Shown piece after piece: positions 14,140-64,000 of a stretch of DNA of 64,000 nt. Origin of the DNA: Streptomyces puniciscabiei (GTDB lineage: Bacteria; Actinomycetota; Actinomycetes; Streptomycetales; Streptomycetaceae); NCBI RefSeq assembly GCF_006715785.1, contig NZ_VFNX01000001.1, positions 1,502,501-1,566,500 of the forward strand. The letters are read 5' to 3'. Position 1 is the first letter of the stretch, and every line of letters begins with the position of its first letter. The position numbers and the translations under genes are program-made. A model generated the notes under the pieces. It was not told the DNA's origin, made no database searches, and saw only the letters and a program-made list of their open reading frames with translations.

Positions 14140-15156
14140 GGTGTGCTGATTCTACGGCGCCGGGACCCTGCGGTTGGCTTGGGCCGTACGGGTGGGCTCC
14201 GCCGGCGGTGCGCCATACCGGGGTTGCCCCTGCACTCGGTGGCGTGGCGCCCTGCGCCGTCGACCGGTAGGCCCCCCATCACCCCGGCGGAACGACCACC
14301 ACGGCGATGGCGGGAGCGGATCAGGGCGGCGGGTCGAACGTCCCACGCCGGCGGCCAGGCGGGGCCGAGCCGGGCGTACGGCGGCGACGGTTTGAGCATC
14401 CCCACGGCTACGGCGGCGGGTCGGGTTTCCCACGACGGTGGCGGGTCGGGTACCCCACGGCGACGGCGCCGCGTCGGACAGGACCCCGGCGACAGTGGCG
14501 GGTCGGTACTCCCCCGGCCACGGTGACGCGGCGACGAGTCAGGCCTCCCACGACGGTGGACGCGATGCCGGCAGTCGGCTGTCCCCGCGGCTGCCACGAC
14601 GGGTCGGACTTCCCACGACGGGTCGGGTTTCCCACGACGGTGGCGGATCGGGCACTCCCCACGGCGACGGCGCCGCGTCGGACAGGACCCCGGCGACAGT
14701 GGCGGGTCGGCACTCCCCCGGCCACGGTGACGCGGCGACGAGGCAGGCCTCCCACGACGGTGGACGCGATGCCGGCAGTCGGCTGTCCCCGCGGCTGCCG
14801 CGACGGGTCGGACTTCCCACGACGGGTCGGGCTTCCCACAACGGTGGCGGGTCGGGTACCCCCGCGGCAACGGTGCCGCGTCGGGTAGCACCCCGGCGAC
14901 AGTGGCGGGTCGGGGACCCCACGGGTGGTGGCGAGGGCGGGTCGCCATGGTGGTGGGCGCGGTGCTCGCAGGTTGCGTTGCGTGGCACGGCGACGGCCGC
15001 GGGTCGGGTACCCCCACGGTGGCGTGGGTGGGGTGGGTACCCCGCGGCGTGCGGCGGCGCAGGCCAGGCGGTTCCCCGGCGGGTGTTGCTGGTGGTGGGG
15101 CGGCGGGGTGCCCCGTCGTCCTCGGGGCCGGCTTCGTCAGGCGGTGCCGCCCCGGC
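14140..15156. repeat. 1-kb intergenic tract of 204-bp direct repeats
   Basis: There is no credible gene in this gap. Two nearly identical units run 14418-14619 and 14620-14823 (I count about six differences). A diverged third copy starts at 14824 and fades by about 14930. Within and around them, down to about 15040, a shorter motif recurs, roughly GGGTCGGGTTTCCCACGACGG. All six frames stay open for long stretches because of the composition, with Pro/Arg/Gly-rich translations that look unlike proteins. Confidence 0.85.
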
Positions 15157-55450: not shown

Positions 55451-57325
55451 GTGATGCCCACGACACGTGCAACCACCGAGACCGACCGTTCCGCCGTACG
55501 CACGCTGCTGCGCCTGTGGCCGTACGTCCGCCCCGTGCGGGCGCGGCTGTTCACGGCCGCGTTCGTCGCGGTCGTCGCCTCCTGCACCGGGCTGGTGATC
55601 CCGCTCGTCCTGAAGTGGCTCGTGGACGGGCCGGTCGCCGACCATGACCCGGCGGGAGTCTGGCTCGGGGCGCTGTACCTGCTCCTGCTCGGAATCGCCG
55701 AGGCGGTCCTGTTCGGTGTACGGCGCTGGCTGGTGGCCCGACCCCTGTCGCACGTGGAGGCGGAGATGCGGGCGGGGCTGTACGGCCATCTGCAGCGGCT
55801 GCCCGTCGCCTTCCACGACCGCTGGGCCTCGGGCCAGTTGCTGTCGCGGGGCACGACCGACCTGATGCTGCTGCGTATGTTCCTCGCCTTCCCGCTGACG
55901 TTCCTGCTGGTCAACGGCGTCACGATCCTCGTCGGCGTGGTGATCATGCTGATGCAGGACTGGGTGCTGGGCCTGGTCATCCTCGGTCCCGCGATCCCCG
56001 TCATGTGGACCTGCGTGGTCTTCGAGCGGCGGTACGCCCTGGTGGCGCGGCGCGCGCAGGACCAGGTCGGCGACCTCACGACGGTGGTCGAGGAGAGCGT
56101 GCTCGGCATCCGCATCATCAAGGGCTTCGGCCGGCACCGCAGCCAGGCACGGGCGTTCCGCGAGCTGGCGGTCACCCTGCGCGGCACGGAACTGCGCAAG
56201 GCCCGGCTGCTGGCGGTCATCTGGGGTGTCATCGTGACCCTTCCCGAACTGGCCATCGGTGCGGCACTGGTGCTGGGCGCGATCCGGGTGGCCGACGGCG
56301 GCCTGTCGGCGGGCACGCTGGTCGCCTTCCTGAGCACCGCGCTCGCCCTGCGCTGGCCGGTCGACTCCATCGGCTTCCTGCTGGCGATGAGCCAGGAGGC
56401 GGCGACGGCGACGGAACGGTACTTCGAGGTGATGGACGAGGTACCGGAGGACGCGGGGGCCGGGGGCGGCTCGCACGACCCGACGCCACGAGGCACGGCG
56501 GGACTTCGGTTCGAGGGCGTCTCGTTCCGCTACCCCGACGCACCCCCAGACTCCCCGCCCCTCCTCCACGACATCGACCTCCACGTCCGCCCCGGCGAGT
56601 CCATGGCCCTGGTCGGAGCCACCGGCAGCGGGAAGACCACGCTCACCGCCCTCGTCCCCCGCCTGCACGAGGTCACCTCGGGCCGCATCACGCTCAACGG
56701 CGTGGACATCAACGCGATGCGCCGCGAGGAGCTGCGCGCCAAGGTCGCCGTCGCCTTCGAGGAGCCCACGCTGTTCTCCACGAGTGTCGGCGAGAACGTG
56801 CTGATGGGCGCTCCGGACGGCGCCGGCAAGCCTGAGCTCGACCGGGCGCTCGCCGTCGCGCAGGCGGACTTCGCGCACGCCCTCCCCCAGGGCACGGACA
56901 CCCGCGTCGGCGAACAGGGCCTCAGCCTCTCCGGCGGCCAGCGGCAGCGCCTCGCGCTGGCCCGAGCGGTGGTCGGCAGACCGGAGTTCCTGGTGCTGGA
57001 CGACCCGCTGTCCGCCCTGGACGTGCACACGGAGGCCGCCGTGGAGGCCGCGCTGCGGCAGGTCCTCGCCGACACCACCGCGCTGATCGTGGCCCACCGC
57101 CCGTCGACGGTGCTGCTCGCCGACCGCGTCGCCCTGCTCTCGGGCGGCCGGATCGCCGCCGTGGGCACCCATCACGAACTGCTGCGCACCAACGCCGAGT
57201 ACGCGCATCTGATGTCCGGGGACGATTCCGGCGACGCTTCCGGGGACGCTTCCGGCGACGCTTCCGGCGACGCTTCCGGCGACGCTTCCGGCGACGCTTC
57301 CGGGGACGAGGAGGACTCCCGTTGA
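55451..57325 (+). CDS. ABC exporter half-transporter (pair 1, subunit A; degenerate catalytic Glu)
   Basis: A 624-residue fused membrane-ATPase exporter. Six helices span about residues 30-330; the nucleotide domain has Walker A GATGSGKTT (about 389), signature LSGGQRQR (about 491) and Walker B FLVLDDPLSALD, where Asp replaces the catalytic Glu. The C-terminus ends in a 12-bp, eight-unit coding repeat giving SGDA repeats. It starts GTG at 55451 (ATG one codon later). Its TGA overlaps the TTG start of the partner, so the two are coupled and probably form a heterodimer. Confidence 0.94.
   Translation: MMPTTRATTETDRSAVRTLLRLWPYVRPVRARLFTAAFVAVVASCTGLVIPLVLKWLVDGPVADHDPAGVWLGALYLLLLGIAEAVLFGVRRWLVARPLSHVEAEMRAGLYGHLQRLPVAFHDRWASGQLLSRGTTDLMLLRMFLAFPLTFLLVNGVTILVGVVIMLMQDWVLGLVILGPAIPVMWTCVVFERRYALVARRAQDQVGDLTTVVEESVLGIRIIKGFGRHRSQARAFRELAVTLRGTELRKARLLAVIWGVIVTLPELAIGAALVLGAIRVADGGLSAGTLVAFLSTALALRWPVDSIGFLLAMSQEAATATERYFEVMDEVPEDAGAGGGSHDPTPRGTAGLRFEGVSFRYPDAPPDSPPLLHDIDLHVRPGESMALVGATGSGKTTLTALVPRLHEVTSGRITLNGVDINAMRREELRAKVAVAFEEPTLFSTSVGENVLMGAPDGAGKPELDRALAVAQADFAHALPQGTDTRVGEQGLSLSGGQRQRLALARAVVGRPEFLVLDDPLSALDVHTEAAVEAALRQVLADTTALIVAHRPSTVLLADRVALLSGGRIAAVGTHHELLRTNAEYAHLMSGDDSGDASGDASGDASGDASGDASGDASGDEEDSR
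57215..57310 (+). repeat. 12-bp coding minisatellite (SGDA repeats)
   Basis: Eight units of the TCCGGCGACGCT type run without interruption. The first is TCCGGGGACGAT and the last TCCGGGGACGAG; they encode SGDD, six SGDA units and SGDE. They lie at the extreme C-terminus of the first exporter subunit, past the ATPase domain. The length is a multiple of three per unit, so copy number can change without frameshift. Confidence 0.95.
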
Positions 57326-59193
57326 CCACCACGACCGCCTCCACGCCCACCGCCGAGGACGACGAACTCCCCGGCCCGCACCGGGAGGGCGACGCCGGTG
57401 ACGGCGACGTCTTCGACCGGGACGTCCTGCCCGCCCCGCCCGGCGCCACGGCCGCCCTGCTGCGCTCCCTGCTCGCGCCGATGAGAGCCCGGGTGACCGT
57501 CACCACCCTCCTGCTCCTCCTCCAGCAGGCGGCGGTGCAGCTGGGCCCGTTGCTGGTGGCGTACGCCATCGACAGCGCCGTACCGGCGTTCCGGGACCAC
57601 CGGCACGGCCCGCTGGTCGCGGTCGCCGTCGGCTATCTGCTGTGCGCCCTCGCCTCCGGTCTGCTGCAGTCCGCGTTCATCGAGGCCTCCGCCCGGGTCA
57701 GCCAGGACGTGCTGCTGGATCTGCGGGGCCGGATCTTCCGGCACGCGCAGGCGCTGAGCATCGACTTCCACGAGCGGTACACGTCCGGACGGCTGATCTC
57801 CCGCTCCACCACGGACGTGGAGTCGCTCCGCGAACTCCTCAACGACGGCCTGCAGGAGCTGGTGACCGTCGTGCTGTCCTTCGTCTACATCTCGGCGATG
57901 CTGCTGTGGCTGGATCTCGGCCTCGGCGCCGTCGCGGTGGCCTCGTTCGTGCCGCTGTACCTGCTCGTCCGGCTCTACCAGCGGCGGGCGGGACGGGTGT
58001 ACCGGGCGCGGTCGACGGCGATCGCGGCGGTGATCGTGAAGTTCGTGGAGACGATGAACGGCATCCGTCCGGTGCGCGCCTTCCGCCGGGAGGCGGCCAA
58101 CGACGCCGAGTTCGCCGTGCTCAACCGGCGGCACGAGCGGACCAACGGGGACGCGCTGCTGGAGATGGCCCGCTATGTGGTCGGCTCCCGGCTGGTGGCG
58201 AACACGGCGGTCGCGGGGATCGTGCTGTGGGGCGCCTACCGGGTGGCGTCCGGCTCGCTGGAGCTGGGTGTGCTGGCGGCGGCGGTGCTGTACCTGCGCC
58301 GGCTGTACGACCCGATCGACCGGCTGGGGATGTTCCTGAACTCCTACCAGTCGGCCGCCGCCTCCCTGGAGAAGGTCGCCGGGCTGCTGGCCCAGACCCC
58401 GTCCGTGCCGGAGCCGGCGGTCCCTCGTGAACTCCCGCCGCTGAAGGGGGACTTCCCGGGCCGCGAGGTCGTCTTCGACCGGGTCCGGTTCGGTTACCGC
58501 ACCGGCGGCGAGGTCCTGCCCCGCTTCGATCTGACCCTGCCGGCCGGGCAGACGGTCGCCGTGGTCGGTTCCACGGGTGCCGGCAAGTCCACGCTCGCCA
58601 AGCTGCTCGCCCGCTTCTACGACCCCTCCGACGGCCGCGTGCTGCTGGACGGCGTGGATCTGCGCGAGCTGCCCGTGCCGGAACTGCGGCGCGGGGTGGT
58701 GATGGTGACCCAGGAGGCCTTCCTGTTCTCGGGCACGGTCGCCGACAACATCGCCATCGGCCGGCCCGACGCCACCCGGGAGGAGATCGAGCGGGCGGCG
58801 AAGGCGATCGGCGCGCACGAGTTCATCAGCGCCCTGCCCGACGGCTACGACACCGACGTCCGCAAGCGCGGCGGGCGCATCTCGGCCGGGCAGCGCCAAC
58901 TGGTCGCCTTCGCCCGCGCGTTGCTCGCCGACCCGGCGGTGCTGATCCTGGACGAGGCGACCAGTTCGCTGGACATCCCGGGCGAGCGGGCCGTGCAGCG
59001 GGCGATGTCGACGGTGCTGCGGGGCCGTACGGCGGTGGTGATCGCGCACCGGCTGTCGACCGTGGAGATCGCGGACCGGGTGCTGGTGATGGAGCACGGC
59101 CGGATCGTCGAGGACGGCCCTCCGGCGGAACTGACCGGCGGCACGGGCCGGTTCGCGGATCTGCACCGGGCATGGCGGGACAGTCTGGCGTAG
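57322..59193 (+). CDS. ABC exporter half-transporter (pair 1, subunit B; consensus ATPase)
   Basis: A 623-residue partner exporter. A 40-residue acidic leader precedes six membrane helices, then the ATPase domain with Walker A GSTGAGKST (about residue 415), Walker B VLILDEATSSLD with the catalytic Glu intact, and a weakened signature ISAGQRQ. It starts TTG at 57322, overlapping the previous stop (TTGA), with GAGGAG upstream. Its Walker motifs and the partner's LSGGQ would make one consensus ATP site. The substrate is unknown. Confidence 0.93.
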   Translation: MTTTTASTPTAEDDELPGPHREGDAGDGDVFDRDVLPAPPGATAALLRSLLAPMRARVTVTTLLLLLQQAAVQLGPLLVAYAIDSAVPAFRDHRHGPLVAVAVGYLLCALASGLLQSAFIEASARVSQDVLLDLRGRIFRHAQALSIDFHERYTSGRLISRSTTDVESLRELLNDGLQELVTVVLSFVYISAMLLWLDLGLGAVAVASFVPLYLLVRLYQRRAGRVYRARSTAIAAVIVKFVETMNGIRPVRAFRREAANDAEFAVLNRRHERTNGDALLEMARYVVGSRLVANTAVAGIVLWGAYRVASGSLELGVLAAAVLYLRRLYDPIDRLGMFLNSYQSAAASLEKVAGLLAQTPSVPEPAVPRELPPLKGDFPGREVVFDRVRFGYRTGGEVLPRFDLTLPAGQTVAVVGSTGAGKSTLAKLLARFYDPSDGRVLLDGVDLRELPVPELRRGVVMVTQEAFLFSGTVADNIAIGRPDATREEIERAAKAIGAHEFISALPDGYDTDVRKRGGRISAGQRQLVAFARALLADPAVLILDEATSSLDIPGERAVQRAMSTVLRGRTAVVIAHRLSTVEIADRVLVMEHGRIVEDGPPAELTGGTGRFADLHRAWRDSLA

Positions 59194-60103: not shown

Positions 60104-61843
60104 ATGTCCGGCGAGGGCGAGCCGATCGGGGGACGGATGATCGACGCGTACGAGGATCCGGGCACCCCGGACACCCGCGGCGGCTGGCGCTACCTGTGGT
60201 GGCTGGTGCTGCGTCAGCCGGGGCGGTCGGCGGCCGGGGCGCTGCTGGGCAGTGCGTGGATGGTGCTGATGGCCGCGCAGCCGTATCTGATGGCGCGGGC
60301 CGTGGACGAGGGGCTGGTGCCGGGTCGGCTGGGGGTGCTGGCCGCGTGGAGCGGGGTGATGTTCGCGGTCGGGTCGGTCAACGCCTGGCTGAGCATCATG
60401 CGGCACCGCACGATGACCCGGGTGCGCATGGACGCCAACTTCCGCACGGTGAAGGTGGTCGTGGGCCATGTGGTGCGGCTCGGGGCCGCGCTGCCGCGCC
60501 GGGCGGGGGCCGGTGAGGTGGTGACGATCGGAGTCGGCGACGTGACGACCGTCGCGCAGGCGCTGACGGTGGTCGGTCCGGGCGTCGGCTCGGCCGTGGT
60601 GTATGTGGTCGTGGCCGGGCTGCTGCTGGCGGTCTCGGCACCGCTCGCCGCCGTCGTGCTGCTCGGGCTGCCGGTGATCGCGCTGGTCACCGGGCCGCTG
60701 ACGCTGCGGCTGCAGGGCGCGGAGAGCACCTACCGGGAGCGGCAGGGTGTGCTGACCGCGCGCATCGGCGACCTCGCGGGCGGGCTGCGCGTCCTCAACG
60801 GCCTCGGCGGCAAGGGACTGTTCGCGGACGCCTTCCGGCAGGACTCGCGGCGGCTGCGCGCACAGGGCTACCGGGTGGGCGCGGTGGCCAGCTGGGTGCA
60901 GGCGCTCGGCGTGGGCCTGCCCACCCTGTTCCTGGCCGTGGTGACCTGGCTCGCGGCACGGCTCGCGGCCCAGGGATCCATCACCGTCGGCGAGTTGGTG
61001 GCGGTGTACGGCTATGTGGCCGTGCTGATCGGGCCGGTGGCGTTCTTCGTGCAGATGGCCTACGACCTGAACCGGGGTGTGGTGGCCGCGCGCCGAGTGG
61101 TACGGCTGCTGCGGCTGGAGCCGGAGCCGGACGAGGGCACGCTGCGGGCGCCCGAGGAACCGGCCGAGCTGCACGATCCGGCGTCGGGAGTGCGGGTGGT
61201 GCCGGGCCGGCTGACGGCGCTGGCCGCCGCCCGGCCCGCCGAGGCCGCCGCCGTGGTGGACCGGCTCGGCCGCTTCGGGCCGACCGACGCCACCTGGGGC
61301 GGGGTACGGCTGGACGCGGTCCCGCTGGCGGACGTGCGCGGGCGGATCCTGGTCGCGGACAACGAGGCCGACCTGTTCGCGGGGCCGCTGCGCGAGGTCG
61401 TGGCCGCCGGGCACCCCGCCGACGAGGCCGAGCTCGGCCGGGCGCTGTACGCGGCGGCCGCCGAGGACGTCGTACGCGGGCTGCCGGAGGGCACGGACTC
61501 GCCGGTGTCCGGGCAGGGCCGCAGCCTGTCGGGCGGGCAGCGGCAACGGATGCGGCTGGTAAGGGCGTTGCTGGCCGACCCCGAGGTGCTGCTCGCGCTC
61601 GAGCCGACCTCGGCGCTGGACGCGCACACCGAGGCGACGGTCGCCCGGCGGCTGCGCGAGGCGCGGGAGGGCCGTACGACGCTGGTGACGTCGACCTCGC
61701 CGCTGGTGCTGGACCACGCGGACACGGTCGTCTTCCTGGTCGACGGCAAGGTCGCGGCGAGCGGTCCCCACCGGCGGCTGCTCGGGGCGGAGCCGGGGTA
61801 TCGGGCACTCGTCGCCCGGGACACGGAAGGAGCCGTACGGTGA
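60104..61843 (+). CDS. ABC exporter half-transporter (pair 2, subunit A; no Walker A)
   Basis: A 579-residue fused exporter. Six helices span about residues 30-310. Where Walker A should be (about residue 373) the sequence is LAAARPAEAAAV with no Lys or Gly pattern, and Walker B is VLLALEPTSALD with Leu for the essential Asp. The signature LSGGQRQRM is intact. ATP binding at its own site is therefore unlikely. Starts at 60104 or 60137 (after GGGGGACGG) are both possible. Its 3' end carries GGAAGGAG and a GTGA junction that precedes the 91-bp array. Confidence 0.9.
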   Translation: MSGEGEPIGGRMIDAYEDPGTPDTRGGWRYLWWLVLRQPGRSAAGALLGSAWMVLMAAQPYLMARAVDEGLVPGRLGVLAAWSGVMFAVGSVNAWLSIMRHRTMTRVRMDANFRTVKVVVGHVVRLGAALPRRAGAGEVVTIGVGDVTTVAQALTVVGPGVGSAVVYVVVAGLLLAVSAPLAAVVLLGLPVIALVTGPLTLRLQGAESTYRERQGVLTARIGDLAGGLRVLNGLGGKGLFADAFRQDSRRLRAQGYRVGAVASWVQALGVGLPTLFLAVVTWLAARLAAQGSITVGELVAVYGYVAVLIGPVAFFVQMAYDLNRGVVAARRVVRLLRLEPEPDEGTLRAPEEPAELHDPASGVRVVPGRLTALAAARPAEAAAVVDRLGRFGPTDATWGGVRLDAVPLADVRGRILVADNEADLFAGPLREVVAAGHPADEAELGRALYAAAAEDVVRGLPEGTDSPVSGQGRSLSGGQRQRMRLVRALLADPEVLLALEPTSALDAHTEATVARRLREAREGRTTLVTSTSPLVLDHADTVVFLVDGKVAASGPHRRLLGAEPGYRALVARDTEGAVR

Positions 61844-62450
61844 CGGGGGCACGGGACGGGATGGGCGGCCGCGCGCCAAGGGTGCGGGTCGCGGGGCACC
61901 CGGGGCAGCGGCATGCGAGGTATGGCGCCACCGGCGGCCGACCGGCGCCCGGGCGGCCTGGCACCCGCGCGCCGCGATGCCCAGGGGGTCGTACGGTGAC
62001 GGCGGGCAAGGCGCCGCAGCGACGGCGGCCGACCTACACCCCAGCAGTCCGGTGCCCGCGCGCCACGAAGCCCAAAGGGTCGTACAGTCACGGCGGGCAA
62101 GGCGCCGCAGCGACGGCGGCCGGCCTACGCCCCAGCAGTCCGGTGCCCGCGCGCCACGAAGCCCAAGGGGTCGTACGGTGACGGCGGGCAAGGCGCCGCA
62201 GCGACGGCGGCCGGCCTACGCCCCAGCAGTCCGGTGCCCGCGCGCCACGAAGCCCAAGGGGTCGTACGGTGACGGCGGGCAAGGCGCCGCAGCGACGGCG
62301 GCCGGCCGACGCCCCAGCGGCCGGGAGGCCACACGCCGCGATGCCCGAGGGGTCGTACGGTGAGGCAGGGCCCGGGGCCGCAGCGACGGTGGCCGGCCTA
62401 CACCCCGGCGGTCCGGTGCCCGCGCGCCACGAAGCCCAAGGGGGCGTACG
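61844..62450. repeat. 91-bp tandem array between coupled exporter genes
   Basis: Five units start at 61988, 62079, 62170, 62261 and 62352, each exactly 91 bp; diverged unit-like sequence fills 61844-61987. Each full unit ends with an AGGGG-type run, and most have the block GTCGTACGGTGACGG, which carries a GTG start and an overlapping TGA. Unit 2 has lost this GTG (ACAGTCAC). The same block occurs at the stop of the upstream gene (61834-61846) and the start of the downstream gene. No ordinary gene lies here. Confidence 0.9.
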
Positions 62451-64000
62451 GTGACGGTGGGTGAGGGGCTGCTGCCGGTGGCAGGGCCGGCCCGGGTGCG
62501 GCGGGCCGCGCTGCGGCTGGTGCGGGCCGACGGGCGGGCGTTCGCCGCCGCGCTGCTGCTGAACACGCTGGCGGCGGGGGCCGGGCTGGTCGGGCCGTGG
62601 TTGGTCGGGCGGATCGTGGACGAGGTGCGGGGCGGGCAGGGGACCGGCGCGGTGGACCGGCTCGCGCCGTGGATCCTGGTGTGCGCGCTGGCCCAGCTGC
62701 TGCTGGCCCGCTGGGCGCGTTACGTCGGGTACCGGTTCGGGGAGCGGACGCTGGCCCGGGTGCGCGAGGAGTACGTCGAGCGGGTGCTGGCGCTGCCGGC
62801 GTCCGTGGTGGAGCGGGCCGGCACCGGCGATCTGACCGCGCGCGGCACGGCGGACGTGGCGATCGTCGGCACCACCCTGCGGGACGTCGGCCCGGAGCTG
62901 CTGGTCAGCGCCGTGCAGGCACTGTTCGTCCTGGTGGCGGTGTTCGCGCTCGACCCGCTGCTGGGGGCGTTCGGGCTGCTCGGGCTGACCCCGATCTGGC
63001 TGGCGCTGCGCTGGTATCTGCGGCGGGCCCGGGACGGCTATCTCGCCGAGGGCGCGGCCACCTCCCAGGTCGCGGAGATCATCGCCTCGACGGCGGCCGG
63101 CGCCCGGACGGTCGAGGCCTTCGGGCTGCGGGGGCGACGGGTGGCGGCGAGCCGGGACGCGCTGGAGGAGGCCCGCCGTACCCGTCTGTACACGCTGTTC
63201 CTGCGCACGATGTTCTTCCCGGCGGTCGAGGTGACGTACACCGTGCCCGTGGTGGGCGTACTGCTGCTCGGCGGCTGGCTGCACCAGCGGGGCGCGGTCG
63301 GCGTCGGCGCGGTGGTGGCGGCGGCACTGTACCTGCGGCAGTTCACCGAGCCGCTGGACCAGATCCTGATGCGCGTGGAGCAACTGCAGAGCAGCAGCGC
63401 CTCGTTCGCCCGCGTGGAGGGGCTGGCGCAGGCCCCGCGCGGGGAGAGTCCGGCCGGGTCCCCGGTTCCGGCGGACGACCGGATCGACGTGCGCGGGGTC
63501 CGGTACGCCTACGAGCGCGGCGGCGAGGTGCTGCGCGGGGTGGACCTGACGGTACGGTCCGGGGAGCGGCTGGCGGTGGTGGGCCCCTCCGGCGCCGGGA
63601 AGACGACCCTCAGCCGGCTCCTCGCGGGCATCGACCGGCCCGGCACGGGCGAGGTGACGGTGGGCGGGGTGCCGGTGGCCGAGCTGGCGCCGGAGCTGCT
63701 GCGCCGCCAGGTGGTCCTGGTGACACAGGAACACCATGTGTTCCACGGCACGGTCCGCGACAACCTGCTGATCGCCGAGCCGGAGGCCACGGACGAGGAG
63801 CTGTGGGCGGCGCTCGCGACGGTCGGGGCCGACGACTGGGTCCGGGCCCTGCCGGACGGCCTCGGCACCCGGCTGGGCGCGGGCGGCCGCGCAACCGACG
63901 GCTCCCAGGCGCAGCAACTCGCCCTGGCGCGGGTGGTGCTGGCCGACCCGCACACGCTGATCCTGGACGAGGCGACCGCGCTGCTGGACCCCACGACGGC
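62451..64000 (+). CDS. ABC exporter half-transporter (pair 2, subunit B; partial)
   Basis: The first 516 codons of a fused exporter; the 3' end is outside the window. Six helices span about residues 30-310. Walker A GPSGAGKTT (about residue 378) and Walker B LILDEATALLD are intact, while the signature is TDGSQAQQ instead of LSGGQ. This complements subunit A, whose signature is intact and Walker motifs lost. GTG at 62451 is preceded by AAGGGGG at a 6-7 nt spacing, provided by the last repeat unit. Confidence 0.92.
   Translation, partial: MTVGEGLLPVAGPARVRRAALRLVRADGRAFAAALLLNTLAAGAGLVGPWLVGRIVDEVRGGQGTGAVDRLAPWILVCALAQLLLARWARYVGYRFGERTLARVREEYVERVLALPASVVERAGTGDLTARGTADVAIVGTTLRDVGPELLVSAVQALFVLVAVFALDPLLGAFGLLGLTPIWLALRWYLRRARDGYLAEGAATSQVAEIIASTAAGARTVEAFGLRGRRVAASRDALEEARRTRLYTLFLRTMFFPAVEVTYTVPVVGVLLLGGWLHQRGAVGVGAVVAAALYLRQFTEPLDQILMRVEQLQSSSASFARVEGLAQAPRGESPAGSPVPADDRIDVRGVRYAYERGGEVLRGVDLTVRSGERLAVVGPSGAGKTTLSRLLAGIDRPGTGEVTVGGVPVAELAPELLRRQVVLVTQEHHVFHGTVRDNLLIAEPEATDEELWAALATVGADDWVRALPDGLGTRLGAGGRATDGSQAQQLALARVVLADPHTLILDEATALLDPTT

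Follow-up and report, generated by a model that had tools for sequence, protein, structure and literature searches.

How might two probable partner subunits of an exporter be made together when the overlapping start and stop at the end of the first gene lie 611 nt from the start of the second? The question is raised by a 64,000-nt stretch of Streptomyces puniciscabiei DNA (RefSeq assembly GCF_006715785.1, contig NZ_VFNX01000001.1, positions 1,502,501 to 1,566,500), referred to here as the window, in which genes A and B, encoding half-size ATP-binding cassette (ABC) exporter subunits, flank a 91-bp tandem array. We consider it probable, though well short of certain, that this array arose by tandem expansion on the spot, where the stop of A meets the start of B, and would relay ribosomes from A to B by termination-reinitiation, and comparison with relatives supports relayed, coupled translation as the predicted arrangement. 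The features on which the argument depends are the following.

60104 to 61843, plus strand: gene A, subunit of half-size ABC exporter type whose nucleotide-binding domain is degenerate (open reading frame (ORF); Pfam PF00664 and PF00005)
61825 to 61843, plus strand: A-end junction s0, Shine-Dalgarno (SD) sequence GGAAGGAG (61825-61832) plus GTGA (sequence, duplex energy)
61844 to 61963, plus strand: diverged leader from the A stop to the scored array (repeat search, register copy at 67% identity)
61964 to 62461, plus strand: 91-bp tandem array of 5.5 copies, with full units from 61996, 62087, 62178, 62269, and 62360 (Tandem Repeats Finder, TRF)
62087 to 62090, plus strand: lost start s2, GTCA instead of GTGA (sequence, unit comparison)
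62437 to 62454, plus strand: B-start junction s6, an AAGGGGG run plus GTGA (sequence, duplex energy)
62451 to 64000, plus strand: gene B, partner half-exporter, continuing past the window end (ORF, Pfam)

A preliminary description of this DNA had placed the A-end SD at 61825-61832 and the GTGA at 61840-61843, both of which are confirmed in the sequence, and had gene B starting at 62451, 611 nt away. That start holds by ORF and in-frame stop check: in the B frame no start codon stands between the stop at 62361-62363 and GTG 62451, which lies 611 nt from GTG 61840. Against the anti-SD sequence, the duplex energies are -10.5 kcal/mol for the A-end SD and -10.3 kcal/mol for the SD at the B start. 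The array (period 91, TRF score 784) carries GTGA in 4/5 full units, and the motif also stands at both gene ends (61840, 61996, 62178, 62269, 62360, and 62451 in all); the overlap of the GTGs at 61996, 62178, 62269, and 62360 with TGAs is as first described. Five units had been called exact, which is wrong, as the five full units in order have 4, 1, 0, 11, and 11 mismatches to the consensus over 91 positions. From 61840 to 61996 the interval measures 156 nt and so is not one of the 91-nt units. Masking of the SD as the basis of coupling was rejected, since the unpaired values (0.50-0.69 in the window versus a mean of 0.46 over 124 simple junctions) show no distinctive masking in the window.

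According to the accessible part of PMC10666635, coupling is nearly abolished by gaps of ~20 nt, and overlaps of 4 nt and 1 nt greatly outnumber all others; an uncoupled 600-nt gap should therefore be costly, and by this distance rule B stays coupled only if the translated path through an insert is unbroken. Re-initiation would be possible because the inserts carry a start that overlaps the preceding stop: ribosomes finishing A would re-initiate on short ORFs and then be handed to B. The surviving inserts would be mainly those that keep the path open, either as 2 mod 3 per link or as 0 mod 3 in the form of an N-terminal extension of B, and the mini-ORF peptides would be by-products, the conserved role being the delivery of ribosomes and the making of partner subunits together.

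Junctions of the gene pair in relatives

The loci compared are a sample, drawn from the best 80 of 359 relatives in one search and from 164 of 392 genomes matched in another, with 23 of the listed matches, plus unlisted ones, left out. It comprises 207 loci, 6 of which are without gene A and 201 of which have both genes; removal of 25 near-duplicates gave 176, and the dropping of L132, which was mis-assigned, gave 175 distinct junctions, with L099, L111, and L130 classed as simple by eye. A simple stop-start overlap (GTGA or ATGA, with a few TTGA, and an offset of <24 nt) is found at 124/175, including L032, the nearest relative, and a natural 14-nt overlap at 2/175 (L035 and L079). At 37/175 B keeps its overlapping start and is lengthened by >=24 nt of in-frame insert, and at 12/175, the window among them, B has a separate start. 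This distribution supports the proposal that the array expanded where the coupling junction had once been simple. Within the in-frame class, L050, L051, L053, L055, and L060 read a GGGGCGCGGGG-type element, of a kind common between Streptomyces genes, as an N-terminal extension of B, and L155 has an in-frame extension of ~460 nt of degenerate repeats with the 4-nt overlap kept.

The evidence that carries the relay comes from the separate-start junctions. Outside the window, 10/11 have a strict chain of mini-ORFs running from A to B by 4-nt overlaps, as a single link in L036 (164 nt), L076 (185), L108 (236), L113 (203), L128 (35), L165 (38), L205 (203), and L236 (158), and as multiple links in L046 (2 x 35 nt) and L047 (5 x 35 nt). 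Every link in the relatives is 2 mod 3, as is the 611-nt total in the window. One, two, and five links are present in L165, L046, and L047 despite 95-96% identity over 1203 nt of gene A. A FastTree tree of gene A counts 10 changes for separate starts and places L046, L047, and L165 closest together, and the strict relay is kept in 8/9 independent events when the window is left out. Against dinucleotide-shuffled, length-jittered inserts this gives P = 3e-5 if draws that merely extend B are counted as failures and P = 1.2e-4 once they are excluded. The sampled survivors keep a translated path with one clear exception, L129, and the window does so by a looser overlap only. No 1 mod 3 insert without a relay occurs among the 49 expanded junctions (37 in-frame and 12 separate); over 28 events such a zero has a probability of 1e-5, a figure on which we do not rely, as it assumes uniform phase and the in-frame changes may include losses. 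The relayed coupling of the preliminary description is supported by the strict relays in 8/9 events among relatives; in the window the strict chain from A misses B. The random disruption of array elements that it had named as the contrary pattern is absent from L046 and L047, in which every start/stop overlap is kept.

A second exporter pair in the window, paralogous to A/B (55451-59193), meets in a TTGA overlap at 57322-57325 that is simple in 30/30 relatives. Expansion was seen in 10/28 for A/B versus 0/30 for the paralogous pair (Fisher 2.5e-4), in genome sets that overlap only in part. The first gene of the paralogous pair ends in a 12-bp repeat coding for (SGDA)n, at 57215-57308 and in frame.

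The mini-ORFs themselves point to where some inserts came from. In L205 the first residues of B are fused in frame to the last residues of A (z 19 and 22), and this B-head/A-tail chimera therefore indicates duplication of the junction itself. The opening residues of the mini-ORFs in L036, L076, L108, L113, and L236 resemble those of B (z 4-11), making six cases with L205. In L128 the tail of the mini-ORF resembles A (z 5.0, 0/300 shuffles), and its head resembles B more weakly (z 2.6, 5/300). In the window, the tails of the later array ORFs are weakly A-like (3/300 and 5/300 shuffles).

The 91-bp unit was sought more widely as well. A two-unit query of 392 genomes matched only the window's own genome, and elsewhere in that genome there was no strong match, the next best being 30 nt at E 1e-4 (40 of 172 candidates scored); a dispersed repeat family was rejected, the unit being private among the sequences searched. 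In a TRF scan of ~1.26 Mb of this genome (1.2 Mb in addition to the window, with 2.5 kb in common), the A/B array has the top score among arrays whose period is not divisible by 3. Six other such arrays there carry RTGA or TTGA: the 176-bp array (genome 4307571) and one 25-bp array (4161607) sit between opposite-strand genes, and the 59-, 31-, 34-, and other 25-bp arrays were set only against a list of nearby ORFs. In L303 (7571-7892) a perfect 176-bp tandem duplication lies at a gene end facing an opposite-strand gene, with no coupled junction, and the window itself holds a 204-bp tandem repeat of 2.4 copies with 93% match at 14417-14913.

Possible translated paths within the window

The path that a ribosome could take through the array is set by the following ORFs.

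61840 to 62181, plus strand: mini-ORF s0, 113 aa, entered from the A stop by 4-nt overlap
62178 to 62363, plus strand: mini-ORF s3, 61 aa, 4-nt overlap with the s0 stop
62269 to 62454, plus strand: mini-ORF s4, 61 aa, stop overlapping the B start by 4 nt; entered by no strict chain from A
62360 to 62464, plus strand: mini-ORF s5, 34 aa, 4-nt overlap with the s3 stop; ends 14 nt inside B
62462 to 62464, plus strand: TGA at which the s5 frame closes, shortly after the B start (past it the frame has no other stop as far as the window end)

Three of these ORFs had been put forward as exact matches (61840 to 62181, 62178 to 62363, and 62269 to 62454), and their ends are confirmed, though not as independent matches. 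The agreement of GTG(n) with TGA(n+2) arises because the period of 91 is 1 mod 3 and the units carry GTGA; the links are thereby forced, and the three matches amount to a single fact. Absent from that argument was the ORF from 62360, whose stop at 62464 lies 14 nt into gene B. The chain derived from A runs 61840 to 62181, 62178 to 62363, and 62360 to 62464, missing the 4-nt overlap at B, whose start overlaps mini-ORF stops in the window only at 62454 and 62464. Hand-over in this genome would thus be imperfect, passing from A to 61840, 62178, and 62360, terminating at 62464, and moving back 14 nt to 62451, and a relay here can be called only topologically possible.

The closing TGA at 62462-62464 exists because codon 4 of gene B is GGT, the sole GGT among the 57 glycine codons in the part of gene B that the window contains. 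Among 111 of the 124 simple relatives, 2 have a stop at offset 14 and 5 have one by offset 23. The same GGT-GA occurs without an array in L034 and L142, so the TGA may be inherited, and the counts are suggestive of non-random closure of the s5 frame only, the offset having been chosen after the fact.

Since the period is 1 mod 3, the simulated chain from A alternates with unit number, reaching B by a 4-nt overlap at even numbers (2, 4, 6, and 8) and by the looser 14-nt overlap at odd ones (1, 3, 5, and 7), the present number being five. In this model the array could act as a copy-number parity switch on subunit coupling, with slippage toggling the A:B synthesis ratio reversibly, an idea that we regard as improbable.

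Competing explanations

Several observations weigh against a relay. In the window the strict 4-nt chain is absent, and the sole path to B is through the 14-nt overlap; in simulation a permissive path was present for 1 to 8 units and for each of 300 leader deletions, so that its presence alone proves little and is not evidence of selection. The start at 62087 is dead, with GTC instead of GTG, the SD/GTG/TGA positions in the array are no better kept than the rest (5/90 mismatches versus 22/365 elsewhere), and gene B has a fair SD of its own (-10.3 kcal/mol), from which it may initiate independently. Among the relatives, L129 is decoupled, A ending in CTGA before a 332-nt gap (around 2160-2500), and the 8/9 relays give just P = 0.02 when every event is assigned even odds. 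As to origin, the heads in L046, L047, and L165 are too short for comparison, and the s0 head in the window is unlike B (z -1.7), so junction duplication, which is shown for some relatives, is inferred for the window array. The L129 gap holds an apparent intergenic-type repeat, and coupling at this junction can be lost.

Much of this would be expected of a neutral variable number tandem repeat, in which a GC-rich segment between the genes was multiplied by slippage or by unequal recombination, B initiates independently with the SD that it possesses, and the ORF matches simply follow from the arithmetic. The forced links, the motifs without extra conservation, the dead start, the SD of gene B, and the viability of L129 with its decoupled gap all agree with such an origin, which nevertheless leaves unexplained both the 8/9 independent strict relays and the complete lack of non-relay 1 mod 3 inserts in the 49 expanded junctions; we judge it doubtful, while giving it real weight. 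Translation of the insert might instead serve mainly to shield the mRNA from Rho-dependent termination (polarity), rather than to hand over ribosomes. Mini-ORFs do cover 8/9 separate cases with inserts of 158-611 nt, the window included and L129 uncovered, yet the 35- and 38-nt inserts of L128 and L165 also keep a strict 2 mod 3 relay. An insert of 35-38 nt is too short for a Rho utilization site, so shielding fits the long inserts only and seems to us quite unlikely as the main function.

It is more improbable still that B is served by a promoter, or by a structured regulatory RNA, located in the array. There is a precedent in mycobacteria, where the interspersed repetitive units (MIRUs) that lie between senX3 and regX3 are reported, in the accessible part of PMC4213456, to drive independent expression of regX3. 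In 61600-62700, however, a search for sigma-70-like promoters and terminators, which did not cover other sigma factors, found none, the fold of one unit (62178-62290) has no extra structure (z +0.85), and the array has no Rfam match. That the array codes for a conserved protein was also rejected, with no Pfam match for three array ORFs and no NCBIfam match for the one tried. Unfolding of the mRNA by the translating ribosome is a possible alternative that would need much the same path as re-initiation, and the accessible part of a 2025 review (PMC12548453) treats the separation of the two as not firmly established.

The exporter pair and known coupling systems

The products of genes A and B both match PF00664. 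In gene A only profile positions 85-137 of the 137 in PF00005 are matched, with the Walker A part unmatched, versus all of positions 1-137, Walker A included, in gene B. By reading of the sequences, LSGGQ is retained in gene A and DGSQ stands at the same place in gene B, and one composite ATP site is therefore expected. The pair thus has the form of a heterodimeric ABC exporter, two half-transporters with one degenerate ATP site, and judged from these sequences A and B are probably obligate partners.

If the relay is real, ribosome relays of one to five mini-cistrons have been built repeatedly at one junction under a clear phase rule. Species ~96% alike would then provide a natural series of 1, 2, and 5 links for measuring the loss per re-initiation step, and the same series could separate re-initiation from mRNA unfolding. 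Annotators might then read short ORFs, and N-terminal extensions, at junctions of this kind as devices for ribosome traffic and not as genes. It would also suggest that MIRU-like elements could begin as duplications of coupling junctions. In the literature consulted, mostly non-subscription and taken as titles and the openings of abstracts, no such Streptomyces arrangement appeared under repeats or duplications with coupling or re-initiation, or under Streptomyces repeats.

In coupling by 4-nt-overlap termination-reinitiation, as described in the accessible part of PMC10666635, the likeness to the A/B locus is an overlapping stop-start with an SD between probable subunits of a complex; the difference is that A and B are widely separated, with their junction present in several copies. 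The present case differs from bicistronic delivery of ribosomes by a short ORF in occurring naturally, in running through a series of links (five of them in L047), and in its apparent evolution by duplication. The closest parallel is with MIRUs, and the following comparison extends as far as the accessible parts of PMC12548453 and PMC4213456. MIRUs are described as repeats carrying an ORF that enters into coupling with a 4-nt spacing, and they occur in many mycobacteria and appear mobile (PMC12548453); the units at senX3-regX3 are 77 and 53 bp, both 2 mod 3 (PMC4213456). Like MIRUs, the 91-bp units are short repeats at genes, and their ORFs overlap neighbors at stop and start, with GTGA at both gene ends. 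The MIRU phase is the one shared by the relatives' links of 35, 38, 158, 164, 185, 203, and 236 nt, whereas the array period of 91 is 1 mod 3, links every second unit, and departs from that register. MIRUs are dispersed at many genome loci; the 91-bp unit is present in 1/392 genomes and matches strongly only at the array, and inserts in some relatives resemble in-place duplications of the junction. Compared by description, the array would work like MIRUs, yet it is local and private.

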